Origin: a virus
Strand: one strand, 5' to 3'
Virus record (IMG/VR): IMGVR_UViG_3300048921_000095
Coordinates: 1-41,787 of that record
Length of the DNA stretch: 41,787 bases
The first letter of the stretch is position 1, and every line of letters starts with the position of its first letter. The notes beneath the pieces were generated by a model. The model did no database searches and was not told where the DNA came from. It saw nothing but the letters and a program-made list of their open reading frames with translations. Below are positions 7,184-39,523 of the stretch, in pieces. Both the position numbers and the translations under genes were made by a program.

Positions 7184-7771
7184 TTAGTTGCGTGGTGATA
7201 ATTCATTCTGAGAAATGGCAAATTTAATGAAGCTTTCGATCCTGTTTTTCTCTTCTTCAGGTAACGATGCATATTTCTGCCTGTCGTACCGGATGACCGA
7301 CGGGTCTGCCGGATGCAGCAGCAGCTCATATCCCTGGCGGCCAAAGGCGCGGGCTATCGCCTCGAGAGTGGAGATCGACACGCTGGCCTCTTTGTTGATG
7401 ACCCGGCCTACAGTGGCCTGGCTGACTCCGCTGGCGCGCGATACCTTGCCCTGAGAAGAAAGCTCGCGGCTCTCCTGCATCCAGCGGGTGAGGTTTACGG
7501 ATGCTATCTCGCCGACGTTCTGTGCGCCGTCATGCTGATAGGAGAGGTCTTTCGTGTCGCTGTCGAGATCCATCCAGAAGCGGGGTTTGCGTCCTGCCTC
7601 TTCAATCTTCCTCGCGGACTGGTCACCAATAATCTTTTTGCCCAGCGCCCAGCGGTTCACCAGGTTTGCCTGTGTTCCCATTCTTTCGGCAAGCCTCGTC
7701 TGAACACCGTTAAATTCGCTGTTGATCAGGTTCACCAGGTTTTCGCGGCGCACGTCATAGATGCTTTTCAT
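7184..7771 (-). CDS. immunity repressor with two HTH segments
   Basis: This 195-aa protein is divergent from the Cro-like gene, as expected for the lysogeny repressor. Residues about 9-60 resemble a phage-repressor HTH (TRLAERMGTQANLVNRWALG; then RKIEEAGRKPRFWMD). Residues about 91-151 form a second XRE-type HTH (GKVSRASGVSQATVGRVINK and SISTLEAIARAFG). The 45-residue tail is helical. I see no LexA/S24 peptidase domain: the usual Ala-Gly cleavage region, Ser and Lys motifs and about 100 residues are missing. RecA-driven self-cleavage therefore seems unlikely. The start is ATG 7771. Operators in the 7825-7887 gap suggest autoregulation. Confidence 0.8.
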   Translation of the reverse strand: MKSIYDVRRENLVNLINSEFNGVQTRLAERMGTQANLVNRWALGKKIIGDQSARKIEEAGRKPRFWMDLDSDTKDLSYQHDGAQNVGEIASVNLTRWMQESRELSSQGKVSRASGVSQATVGRVINKEASVSISTLEAIARAFGRQGYELLLHPADPSVIRYDRQKYASLPEEEKNRIESFIKFAISQNELSPRN

Positions 7772-7824
7772 TGAATGGTAATTAGTCTCAAGTGTTTACG
7801 TTATGTCACTAATTAAACGCTAAA

Positions 7825-7887
7825 TTACCTGACAGGTAAATGCACCCGGCAGGTAACTCAACTTGCAATTAATTACCTTATGGGTGA
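7825..7887. promoter_or_regulatory. tripartite operator of the repressor/cro switch
   Basis: Three sites lie in the divergent gap: 7825-7839 (perfect), 7842-7856 (GCACC left arm, perfect right arm) and 7873-7887 (right arm GGTGA). A further TTACC half site is at 7895-7899. A rightward promoter is possible with -35 TTGCAA (7864-7869) and -10 GAATAT around 7887-7892, overlapping the third site. A leftward promoter for the repressor may use TTTACC and TTTAAT near the first site. The layout parallels OR of lambdoid phages. Confidence 0.75.
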
Positions 7888-7923
7888 ATATTCATTACCT
7901 GAACCAAATAACAGGCAATAGCT

Positions 7924-8154
7924 ATGGGCGATAACGAAAAATTTGATTTTAAGAAATGCTGGCTCGACCTGTCGCCCGCTGAGCGCGACCAGTTCGCAGC
8001 GGAGGCTGGCACCACCAGTCACTATATTCAGACGCATCTGACCGGACGCCGGAAGATGCCAGGCAAGAAGCTTATGAATGGTCTTTATAAGGCATGCAGA
8101 GCACGCAACTGGATCCGCACCAAGCCGGAACTGGCAATCTTCTTCTACTCCTGA
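7924..8154 (+). CDS. Cro-like DNA-binding protein
   Basis: This 76-aa protein is divergent from the repressor. It has a compact helical region (SPAERDQFAAEAGTTSHYIQ followed by THLTGRRKMPGKKLMNGL) in which AAEAGTTSHYIQTHL reads as an HTH. The N-terminus is acidic and the C-terminus basic and aromatic. Size and position fit a Cro-type early repressor that favours lytic growth. It is monocistronic, because a terminator follows within 25 bp. The start is ATG 7924; the Shine-Dalgarno is weak. Confidence 0.75.
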   Translation: MGDNEKFDFKKCWLDLSPAERDQFAAEAGTTSHYIQTHLTGRRKMPGKKLMNGLYKACRARNWIRTKPELAIFFYS

Positions 8155-14464: not shown

Positions 14465-14487
14465 TGATATAGTTACCTGCATGGTAA
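14465..14487 (+). promoter_or_regulatory. terminase promoter (extended -10) with operator
   Basis: TGATATAGT (14465-14473) reads as an extended -10. The perfect operator TTACC-N5-GGTAA (14473-14487) begins at its last base, covering the start site. This places the late terminase genes under the same operator as the early promoters. Confidence 0.65.
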
Positions 14488-16625: not shown

Positions 16626-17003
16626 TCAAGCCTCGCTAAGCTTCTGCTTCAGCAGATAACCTTCCAACATCCAGATTTTATTGACCGCGTTCTCACGGGC
16701 AATCTTGCGTCCGATCTCTGCGTCGAAGTTCTCCGGGCTGGCGCAGGCGCTTTCGCCGGTGACGGTGAAGCCGTTGCGCAGCACCAGGACGCAGAAGGTT
16801 AACAATGGGTGCGCCGCTGCCGTTTCTTCGCCAGGTTGAGTGCCAATATAAACGTCACCATTGGCCTTATATGCCCCGAGCACGCCGTCAGCGGCGGTGA
16901 AGTAGTTTTCCGCCACAATGGTATTTTCAATATGCTGCTGAGTAACGCGCGGCGCGGTTAAGCCTTTCGCCTGAATTTCATGCTCAATATCTTTATCGCT
17001 CAT
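16626..17003 (-). CDS. N4 gp49/Sf6 gene 66 family protein
   Basis: This 125-aa protein matches the gp49 family: AKGLTAPRVTQQHIENTIV, ENYFTAADGVLGAY, LLTFCVLVLRNGFTVTGESA and FDAEIGRKIARENAVNKIW. The family is common in phages, and its function is unknown to me. Start is ATG 17003 (ATG 17006 is equally possible) behind AAGGTG. Twenty-eight further upstream codons in frame lack support. It is encoded on the opposite strand to the flanking terminase and portal genes, as in several related phages. Confidence 0.9.
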   Translation of the reverse strand: MSDKDIEHEIQAKGLTAPRVTQQHIENTIVAENYFTAADGVLGAYKANGDVYIGTQPGEETAAAHPLLTFCVLVLRNGFTVTGESACASPENFDAEIGRKIARENAVNKIWMLEGYLLKQKLSEA

Positions 17004-17124
17004 CATATTCACCTTAAAAAAATGCCCGGCGAACCGGGAGAAATTGTCAACGACGGAGTGCCATCCCTGGCATGGGTGAGGGTTCACAACAGAATGTCAT
17101 CGGGTGGCAATGGCTTTCTGGTGT

Positions 17125-17169
17125 AAAAAGGGCGGTGGCCAGTCCATCTAGGGAGAAACCGCCACCGCC
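17125..17169 (-). terminator. strong leftward terminator downstream of the structured region
   Basis: A perfect 9-bp stem GGCGGTGGC/GCCACCGCC (17131-17139 and 17161-17169) is followed, on the minus strand, by C and five T residues. It would end a leftward RNA started near 17825, before the gp49-like gene. Confidence 0.75.
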
Positions 17170-17825
17170 AAGACTACACACAGCATATCGGTACTACGGG
17201 TATCACGGTCCTAAGGCGTGATTTGGTTGTGGTACGCAGTCTATTCGGCATAGCAGCTCTGCGCAGATGCTTCTAACAATCCCGGTGGTTGCCGGGTTAA
17301 TGCCTTATTCACCACAACGAAGAGAGTACTTAGCCTGTTAAGGCGCCACACTTTGTCGCGGCTCCATAAATACTCTCTCCTGTTGTGTCCTCGTCTCTTC
17401 CGAGGTGTCACACCGAACTGCCACGATGGTGAGTCGCAACTTCGTGCCTAAACGATGGCTTGCACATTCCGGCTACCCGCTGACGAGGAAAACGCAACAA
17501 GGAACATCCCGGACCGCTATCGGCACATGTGCCATATGCCGTACTGCCACAGCTAAAAGCGCGATCCACCGTTTGCATTTAACGACCAGACCAGCAGTCA
17601 TTCACTGAATCGCGCTTTGAGTTATGTGCTGGGATGATGCCCAGCTTATCCACCGCCTTTACTTTTAAGCCCAATATCCTGCTGCGGTACTCCGGGCTAC
17701 TGCATTAGCGTTCACATACCCACCTCTGCAATCTGTCGCATGCTTCATCGCTGTCATGCTCAGCCAACTGTCTAAGAGTTGCACCCGTCGTTGCCGAAGC
17801 TGATAAGTGCAACCCACTAACTGTT
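17170..17825 (-). ncRNA. candidate repressor-controlled structured RNA, about 0.7 kb
   Basis: No convincing gene is present in 17004-17927. On the minus strand a near-consensus promoter (TTGACA at 17860-17855, 17-bp spacer, TACCTT at 17837-17832) is overlapped by a perfect operator, and a strong terminator lies 0.7 kb away at 17125-17169. Between them are several long pairings: CACAAC plus AGAGAGTA with TACTCTCT plus GTTGTG (17313-17387), AAAGCGCGAT/ATCGCGCTTT (17556-17618), GTTGCAC/GTGCAAC (17778-17813) and the palindrome GGCACATGTGCC (17522-17533). Only tiny frames exist, such as a 9-codon one (MEPRQSVAP) behind AGGAGAG. I infer a non-coding transcript, but have no homolog for it. Confidence 0.45.
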
Positions 17826-17903
17826 ACCTAAAAGGTAATAATTGCACCGGATAATGTCAATACCCTGGGTAAAATAATTCGTATATGGTTAAATTGGTAA
17901 TAA
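17824..17903. promoter_or_regulatory. divergent control region: leftward RNA and portal operon
   Basis: A perfect operator (17824-17838) covers the -10/start of the leftward promoter. For the rightward portal operon a TAATTC (17875-17880), a 17-bp spacer beginning GTATATGGTT and a -10-like TAATAA (17898-17903) can be read. The GTATATGG element is centred about 53 bp (five helical turns) from the operator. Confidence 0.6.
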
Positions 17904-17927
17904 TTTAACACACCCGGAGTACCCGCC

Positions 17928-18134
17928 ATGTGCATTGGTAGCACGCCGAAAGTAACTGCCGCGCCGGAAGTTCAGGCCGCACCGCAGGAGCAGGACGCAG
18001 CCGTTGTCAGTTCCCGTGATGAAGAGACCCGCCGCCGCCGCGCTGCTGCTGGCCGCAACTCCACTCTGCTGACCGGCTCGCAGGGCGATACATCCGTTGC
18101 TAATACCAGCGGCAAGACCCTGCTGGGCCAGTAA
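17928..18134 (+). CDS. 68-aa protein preceding the portal
   Basis: MCIGSTPKVTAAPEVQAAPQ starts with a Met-Cys-x-Gly motif, then an Ala/Pro/Gln-rich linker, a basic patch (DEETRRRRAAAGRNSTLL) and a short conserved-looking end (TSGKTLLGQ). Comparable small proteins precede portal genes in T7-like and epsilon15-like phages. I infer a structural or assembly role. Ribosome site GGAG is 8 bp from the ATG. The Met-Cys start is not a lipoprotein signal because no hydrophobic segment precedes it. Confidence 0.7.
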   Translation: MCIGSTPKVTAAPEVQAAPQEQDAAVVSSRDEETRRRRAAAGRNSTLLTGSQGDTSVANTSGKTLLGQ

Positions 18135-38416: not shown

Positions 38417-39523
38417 CTAATCTTTTTTCATGTGTTTTATAAATTTTCTTGCTAATGTCATGCTTGGTTTTTCTACGCAGATGTATAACAAGTATGAAAG
38501 AGCGATTGCCATTGTTAGGGCAAGCAGGAATTTACTAAACCCGGTGGCGAACTCAAACGGAGGGAATGAAAAACCAGGGGTATAGAGTGTATCCATTAGC
38601 ATCGGATGAACCAGATAAAGCGAATATGATATGTTCCCAAGGAACATCAGAGGTTTTATTTCAGACATTCCTCTTACCATTTCATAGAATACCATGACGA
38701 ACATCAATATCATGCAGTGAACGCCTACATTCACAATCCCATGGCCACCATTGTAACGAGAACCGAAGGAAAAAACGGAGAAAGATATTCCAATCACTAG
38801 CATAAAATTAGCTAAAGACGTTGCATTAAAATTCATATCTTTTAGCTTTATATATATCTCACAAAGTACCATCCCATAAACAAACTCAAAAAGCATCGGT
38901 GATGCAAATATTTTGATTATGCCTTGCAGTGAATTTTTTGCTTCAAAATTAAGGGTGGCTTGAGATGAAAATGATAGAGACCCATTTACATAGGCATTTG
39001 AAGAATAAACAACTAATAATATTAATGCCGAACATAACAATGACCTATATCTACCACTTAAAGACATTGATATAAGAAATAAAAAGTAAAAACATATCTC
39101 ATATGTAAGCGTCCATGCGGTATATATTAGAGAGAATCCATAGTATGGTGCTTCAGCGTTGAAATCAAAAGGTAAAAGCAGCGCTGCCTTTATGAGCCTG
39201 ATGTCAACAGGATTATTGTAGAAGTAAACGAAAGAAAATATCAAAAGGCAAACAATGTAAACAGGGTAAAGCCTGAACATTCTTCTTATTGTAAAGTTAA
39301 GTGGCGAAAAATCTTTTGTGGTTGACAGGACGATAACGAACCCGCTTAACATAAAGAATATATCCACTCCAAAATAACCACCCTCAAAAAGAAGATCGCC
39401 TAAATTCTGTTGCGCGTATGTATGATTAAGTAATCCCCTGTAATGAAAAAAAACAACAGCAAGGCACGCAATTCCTCTGAGGTAATGTATTGAAAGCAAT
39501 GTTCCCTTATTTTCACTCATCAT
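38417..39523 (-). CDS. acyltransferase-3 family O-antigen acetylase, lysogenic conversion
   Basis: The 368-aa integral membrane protein has the acyltransferase-3 (OafA-type) pattern: IHYLRGIACLAVVFFHY with Arg16 and His27, YFGVDIFFMLSGFVIVLS, RRMFRLYPVYIVCL, and about ten membrane spans, ending LGNISYSLYLVHPML and CVEKPSMTLARKF. These enzymes O-acetylate surface sugars. phiV10 carries a comparable gene that changes its receptor, and this copy lies next to the tailspike as expected for receptor masking. It is AT-rich relative to the phage. It is leftward, with its own presumed promoter, and no full operator lies upstream, consistent with expression in the lysogen. Confidence 0.92.
   Translation of the reverse strand: MMSENKGTLLSIHYLRGIACLAVVFFHYRGLLNHTYAQQNLGDLLFEGGYFGVDIFFMLSGFVIVLSTTKDFSPLNFTIRRMFRLYPVYIVCLLIFSFVYFYNNPVDIRLIKAALLLPFDFNAEAPYYGFSLIYTAWTLTYEICFYFLFLISMSLSGRYRSLLCSALILLVVYSSNAYVNGSLSFSSQATLNFEAKNSLQGIIKIFASPMLFEFVYGMVLCEIYIKLKDMNFNATSLANFMLVIGISFSVFSFGSRYNGGHGIVNVGVHCMILMFVMVFYEMVRGMSEIKPLMFLGNISYSLYLVHPMLMDTLYTPGFSFPPFEFATGFSKFLLALTMAIALSYLLYICVEKPSMTLARKFIKHMKKD

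Follow-up and report, generated by a model that had tools for sequence, protein, structure and literature searches.

In our study, the block between the terminase and portal genes of the window (the whole stretch of viral DNA that was analysed, 41,787 nucleotides) was found almost certainly to encode a conserved structured RNA. The RNA joins a constant core to a row of stem-closed slots with differing contents, and this combination of a conserved core with exchangeable cassettes is the main point beyond the first-pass annotation of the block. The RNA and its core-plus-slots architecture are well supported by sequence comparison, from which we infer its transcription, timing, action in trans and decoy role. 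The block may well represent a repressor-controlled, modular RNA of the lytic phase, which would act in trans by displaying swappable domains to RNA-binding partners of the host.

Gene neighbourhood and control elements

The window belongs to an epsilon15/phiV10-like podovirus (Uetakevirus), and its best named matches are phiV10, BUCT554, PAT1, epsilon15 and SPC32H. The two terminase subunit genes, small and then large, are followed by a minus-strand gp49/66-family gene, the RNA block, a 68-aa gene and the portal gene (Table 1). In phage Huey, the stretch matching the gp49/66-family gene carries the annotation 'anti-CRISPR protein'. The acyltransferase-3 gene of the window is presumably of the kind that modifies the O-antigen in phiV10-like phages. 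At the stretch corresponding to the block, the epsilon15 record annotates sites for a repressor, for IHF and for RNase III together with a terminator, and several relatives carry a minus-strand tRNA-Arg. A 20-bp perfect inverted repeat, TTAAATTGGTAATAATTTAA (17889-17908), is located between the promoter and gp3; it occurs once in the window and is almost unchanged across the epsilon15-like relatives, and the IHF-site annotation of epsilon15 falls in the stretch corresponding to it.

Table 1. Positions of the RNA features and of the genes discussed in the window.
Feature	Position	Strand	Remarks
gp49/66-family gene	16626-17009	-	PF13876; first same-strand gene past the RNA terminator
Terminator	17125-17169	-	Long-loop hairpin: stem 17169-17130, T-run 17129-17125
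Predicted non-coding transcript, about 700 nt	17125-17825	-	From promoter to terminator; putative transcription
RprA-like 3' element GCTGTGTGTAGTCTTGGC	17184-17167	-	Exact in 37 loci including the window
Conserved hairpin ATCACGCCTTAGGACCGTGAT	17202-17222	-	126 of 292 loci
Slot 2: GUGG..CCAC-closed domain	17225-17315	-	tRNA-Arg(UCU) or other domains there in relatives
Slot 1: 38-nt insert (about 17331-17368) in a constant stem	17313-17387	-	Commonest insert family
Constant pseudoknotted RNA core, 155 nt	17388-17542	-	Covariation across 60 distinct homologues; 148.7 bits (E 3.4e-49) with model R1
Accessory hairpin AAAGCGCG..CGTTAAAT..CGCGCTTT	17556-17619	-	In other phages before the core, after the core or after the terminator
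Accessory module GGAGTACCGCAGC..CTGGGCATCATCCCAGCACATAAC	17621-17693	-	Before the core in the window, L002 and L007; after the core in L091
Operator TTACCTTTTAGGTAA	17824-17838		Perfect palindrome over the -10 box; epsilon15 repressor-site annotation at the corresponding place
Promoter	17832-17860	-	TTGACA (17860-17855), 17-nt spacer, TACCTT (17837-17832)
68-aa gene	17928-18134	+	Borders the block on the portal side
Portal gene	after the 68-aa gene		PF12236
Acyltransferase-3 family gene	38420-39523		PF01757

The first-pass annotation had described the block as holding no credible gene and as carrying a minus-strand promoter under a perfect operator, and both descriptions held on closer analysis. 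Across 64 representatives, the core is covered by no conserved reading frame, and the protein-coding reading of the block was rejected on this ground. A 9-codon frame (MEPRQSVAP) that had also been pointed out does exist, but it is not supported as a gene: of the 18 variants of the insert family to which it belongs three have it broken, the other families lack it, and in most relatives it is thus broken or missing. The promoter and the operator are both present, and the -35 box is TTGACA in most of the relatives and TTGACC or TTGACT in some. The promoter of the window is not listed by a generic scanner because its -10 box matches at only three of six positions. Among the representative cores, 61% have a sigma70-like promoter (score >=10) within 420 nt upstream, compared to 13% of shuffles.

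Operator-like sites gave 15 strand-wise matches in the whole window against 0.28 expected, corresponding to about 12 sites, several of which cluster around the repressor/cro genes at 7187-8151. Since these sites are enriched and several lie near the repressor/cro pair, control by the prophage repressor can soundly be deduced from the sequence. The further operator-like sites, about ten in number, are at 394, 7054, 7116, 7825, 7873, 8208, 10324, 10386, 14473 and 35689, and the one at 14473 directly precedes the gene for the small terminase subunit.

The strong minus-strand terminator of the first-pass annotation was borne out, as the long-loop hairpin and T-run are present; a generic terminator scan misses the hairpin because of the length of its loop. 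Promoter, operator, terminator and conserved fold together agree with the structured, non-coding minus-strand RNA of roughly 0.7 kb that had been predicted. The fold z-score against shuffles was -3.0 for the minus strand (711 nt) and -2.2 for the plus strand; beyond these scores, it is the comparative evidence that is decisive for structure above chance.

The constant core

When 80 viral contigs, five genome loci and named phages were compared, strongly conserved islands stood out on the minus strand. With all but three of the loci then collected (307 in total) the core profile gave a match; near-duplicates are frequent among these loci, and many had been retrieved by patterns taken from the core itself. 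The loci come from pattern scans and are biased to conserved members. Covariation was drawn from related sequences, namely the 60 distinct cores of alignment A3. In a structure-free scan of all column pairs of A3, the top-ranked pairs (155:163, 6:32, 53:93, 153:165, 46:99 and 187:198) fall within, or lengthen, the helices proposed by inspection.

The covariation check confirmed that the structure is conserved in relatives. Of the refuting conditions given in the first-pass annotation, a lack of conserved structure in relatives and a conserved protein frame were both checked, and the RNA claim withstood the two checks. The full structure with two pseudoknots has 94.7% of its cells paired, and both sides are changed in 15 of the 34 core pairs across the 60 distinct homologues. 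Doubly changed cells numbered 135, against a shuffle mean of 40 with no shuffle as high, and slid structures used as a control paired 28-43% of cells. The PK1 helix is invariant and hence covariation gives no proof of it, and the PK2 helix shows three C-G to A-U changes. RNAalifold on A3 recovered only part of the fold because pseudoknots are outside its model; likewise, the minimum-free-energy z-scores of the core (mean about 0) are uninformative, pseudoknots being outside the energy model. The core matched no Rfam family, relaxed thresholds included, and searches of an open-access library turned up no description of it.

Slots and their inserts

Slot 1 follows directly after the core and is closed by the constant stem CAAC..AGAGCAYT / AGTGCTCT..GTTGTG. 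This stem, the best of those picked out in the first-pass annotation, proved to be real and is common to the window and dozens of phages. In 224 loci, the slot-1 inserts were sorted into about 37 families unrelated to one another; this number is approximate, since the sorting relied on a regular expression and a similarity cut-off and included some truncated inserts. The two halves of the stem co-vary, with a mean of -17.3 kcal/mol for cognate halves versus -13.4 when halves are swapped between dissimilar stems. In 372 pairs of loci the cores are at least 97% alike and the slot-1 insert families are different, and ten insert families are common to epsilon15-like and other phages. The inserts themselves are not unusually stable in folding energy (mean z -0.38), and minimum-free-energy z-scores are as uninformative for them as for the core. 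Slot 2 of the relatives is filled by tRNA-Arg(UCU), by several non-tRNA frames with variable interiors or by tRNA-like RNAs. As read from the sequences, the slots are sites of cassette exchange on a constant scaffold, and this constant-stem cassette architecture with host-RNA look-alikes appears to be new.

Cassettes resembling known RNAs

The host-RNA look-alikes are found in relatives and are absent from the window, and slot 1 of the window, like most other inserts, is without a recognised counterpart. The cassettes were compared with E. coli rRNA, RNase P RNA, tmRNA and some tRNAs, and 195 matches to these stable RNAs were obtained at E <=0.001, whereas the complementary strand gave 0 and shuffles gave 0.6; most of the matches are tRNA modules. 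The tRNA-Arg(UCU) is present in 52 of 88 distinct blocks of relatives and at 81 loci in the slot-2 survey, and no tRNA was detected in the window by ARAGORN or Rfam. Other tRNA-like domains keep the D-arm and T-arm and have the anticodon arm replaced by 60-69 nt, and they reach the tRNA cut-off (L332, 29.7 bits; L359, 42.1 bits). T-arm-like hairpins were found at 14.5% compared to 0.6% in shuffles.

Two independent cassettes resemble helix 11 of 16S rRNA. One of these is found in L040, L088, L110, L118, L151 and L175 (Rfam SSU model, E 2.6e-7 for L118), and the other in L014 (E 3.6e-7), with the closing stem altered on both sides. A similarity of L009 and L133 to other regions of 16S rRNA (E 0.007) was at chance level and was discarded.

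In case of small RNAs, STnc100 (RF02076) matched slot 2 of L341, L343 and L348 with 45.7-47.7 bits against a cut-off of 47, L341 being above it (47.7) and the other two just below. The 3' ends of L344 and L362 matched RprA (RF00034) with about 50 bits, below the cut-off of 70, and it is the element GCTGTGTGTAGTCTTGGC that aligns there with the RprA 3' end. The window gave no match to the covariance model of STnc100 or to that of RprA. Its slot 2, taken as 17225-17319, matched the Methylophilales-1 RNA (RF03011) in full length but with 26.3 bits against a cut-off of 79.9 (E 0.002-0.009). That family is named for unrelated bacteria, and slot 2 of the window could be a distant shared RNA domain. 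A hammerhead-ribozyme-like match was seen in the slot-1 insert of L347 at 221-267 (the same phage as L107, 384-430) with 28.7 bits, the cut-off being 34.

Distribution of the core

The upstream flanks of the core loci form 16 clusters which are mutually without detectable similarity, the largest being epsilon15-like and the second lambdoid. In lambdoid phages, the core lies just downstream of a CI-type repressor gene, on the same strand and behind a PL-like promoter. The PL operator-like sequence is repeated between cro and CI in mEp390, BUCT708 and ST101-KPC2phi6.3, and in cdtI the PL palindrome was sought between cro and CI and found only at PL. Matches to C4 antisense RNA and isrK above the cut-off were observed in cdtI (L303, 697-885) and mEp460 (L310, 626-814), where they adjoin antirepressor genes on the opposite side of CI from the core RNA.

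In P1-like elements the core adjoins a DnaB-type helicase gene, and in Stenotrophomonas and Jedunavirus genomes it is beside genes other than terminase. It is also present in the lytic phages SopranoGao and IME346. The RNA of IME346 stands alone with its own terminator, and the flanking genes are oppositely directed. In SopranoGao (L305, 3140-3916) the row of modules is extended by two further stem/slot pairs, and a tRNA-like D-arm lies near the genome end. Among 295 genomes from the family to which a Pseudocitrobacter host belongs, six carried the core; of 398 genomes sampled across the phylum, only that Pseudocitrobacter host genome itself did. This rarity is consistent with a phage-borne element. 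The core RNA loci are mostly unannotated or annotated as hypothetical proteins.

Discussion

In the proposed mechanism, the phage repressor would close the RNA promoter in the prophage state. On induction or infection, RNA polymerase would then make an RNA of about 700 nt and stop at the RNA's own terminator. The fixed core is followed by the stem-closed slots, and recombination at the constant stems would be the way in which phages trade the inner domains of these slots. The cassettes may act as decoys or sRNA-like units for RNA-binding proteins, nucleases or the translation machinery of the host, RNA-targeting defences possibly being among the targets, and they would diversify because hosts differ. 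Action in trans appears the most likely, given that a number of slots in the family hold host stable RNAs, or RNAs resembling these or STnc100. This reading is supported by the covariation of the core, the shared operators, the 16 contexts, the stand-alone copy of IME346, the exchange of inserts and the look-alikes. On the other hand, most inserts lack a recognised counterpart, the look-alikes belong to relatives and the inserts have ordinary folding energies; besides, in both epsilon15-like and lambdoid phages the RNA is followed by a gene on the same strand, which fits a leader role too. The RNA may act as a sponge or as an antisense RNA, two roles raised in the first-pass annotation, and a putative sponge or decoy role ranks first among these ideas. 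More tentatively, the constant core and covarying stems might be a display scaffold for exchangeable mimics of host stable RNAs, that is, for recombining decoys against RNA-targeting defences or the translation machinery.

Structured phage RNAs with tRNAs or variable linkers (GOLLD, ROOL) and prophage sRNAs (STnc100, PasD) are a kind already known. STnc100 is a prophage sRNA which is expressed in EHEC and has been seen on Northern blot (PMC5331693), is related to PasD (PMC13192938) and is described beside stx2 in Stx phages (PMC12370729). STnc100 and PasD resemble the present RNA in being structured prophage RNAs, and the full STnc100 model matches slot 2 of three relatives, whereas STnc100 is without the 155-nt core and without the row of slots. 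The RprA sRNA and the present RNA have GCTGTGTGTAGTCTT before the terminator in common and are otherwise unrelated. As for phage tRNA genes, the complete tRNA-Arg(UCU) in slot 2 of many relatives is only one of several contents. In one alternative, the transcript is a precursor of several sRNAs, cut (for instance by RNase III, RNase E or RNase P) into tRNA or into mRNA-pairing sRNAs of the STnc100/PasD type with an Hfq-type 3' end. The STnc100 match in an RNA that is known to be expressed and PasD-related, the RprA-like 3' element, the annotated RNase III site of epsilon15 and the complete tRNA in many slots all agree with it. We consider it unlikely, as the core is conserved beyond any slot, which is not expected of a disposable precursor; moreover, no common seed region was found and the 16S-like cassettes are left unexplained.

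In the lambdoid phage HK022, the put RNA is a structured RNA just after PL. It is a short two-hairpin element without slots, and it is set beside the present RNA by description alone. By analogy with it, the core could be a factor-independent antiterminator or attenuator acting in cis as an early leader, by which polymerase would run past the terminator into the downstream operon, the slots being passengers. The core of lambdoid phages sits at PL directly after CI, a terminator lies within or after the array, and a same-strand gene is downstream in the window, all of which would suit this function. It is somewhat less probable than the sRNA precursor. The RNA of IME346, which has its own terminator with no same-strand gene behind it, speaks against it as the sole role; also, it does not account for the exchange of slots or the host-RNA look-alikes.

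GOLLD and ROOL are large structured RNAs of phages and prophages, found near tRNAs, with pseudoknots and of unknown function; GOLLD linkers sometimes hold tRNAs, and GOLLD increases during lysis (PMC12286853). An RNA-only assembly around variable cargo, as an analogue of GOLLD (RF01998) and ROOL (RF03087), would agree with the present RNA in being a large pseudoknotted phage RNA whose variable region is able to hold tRNA. However, the core is without any Rfam match, and the GOLLD and ROOL covariance models gave no match even at relaxed thresholds. Sequence and fold are unrelated, the conserved core is smaller, being only about 155 nt, and is found in Enterobacterales phages, and its inserts, enclosed by constant stems that co-vary, are traded among phages; this analogy is improbable as an explanation. 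A packaging RNA or pac/cos element, which the first-pass annotation had offered among the possible roles, has only the adjacency to terminase genes in epsilon15-like phages in its favour and can practically be dismissed, because the core adjoins CI/PL in lambdoid phages and a DnaB-type gene in P1-like elements, stands alone in IME346, is beside other genes in Stenotrophomonas and Jedunavirus genomes, and is under lysogeny-type operators.

Phage genomes are usually read as proteins, and here an RNA locus is under lysogeny-type control. The RNA family is common to epsilon15-like, lambdoid, P1-like and some lytic phages, its core occurs in many unrelated phages of gut bacteria, and the way its cassettes are built has the look of an arms race fought with RNA. 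If the decoy reading is true, the inserts would be a readable library of RNA-dependent targets in the host, each indicating a host factor, such as the one by which 16S helix 11 or the tRNA elbow is recognised. Should the role turn out to be regulatory, many temperate phages would still share, at the PL position, an RNA family that is defined here.
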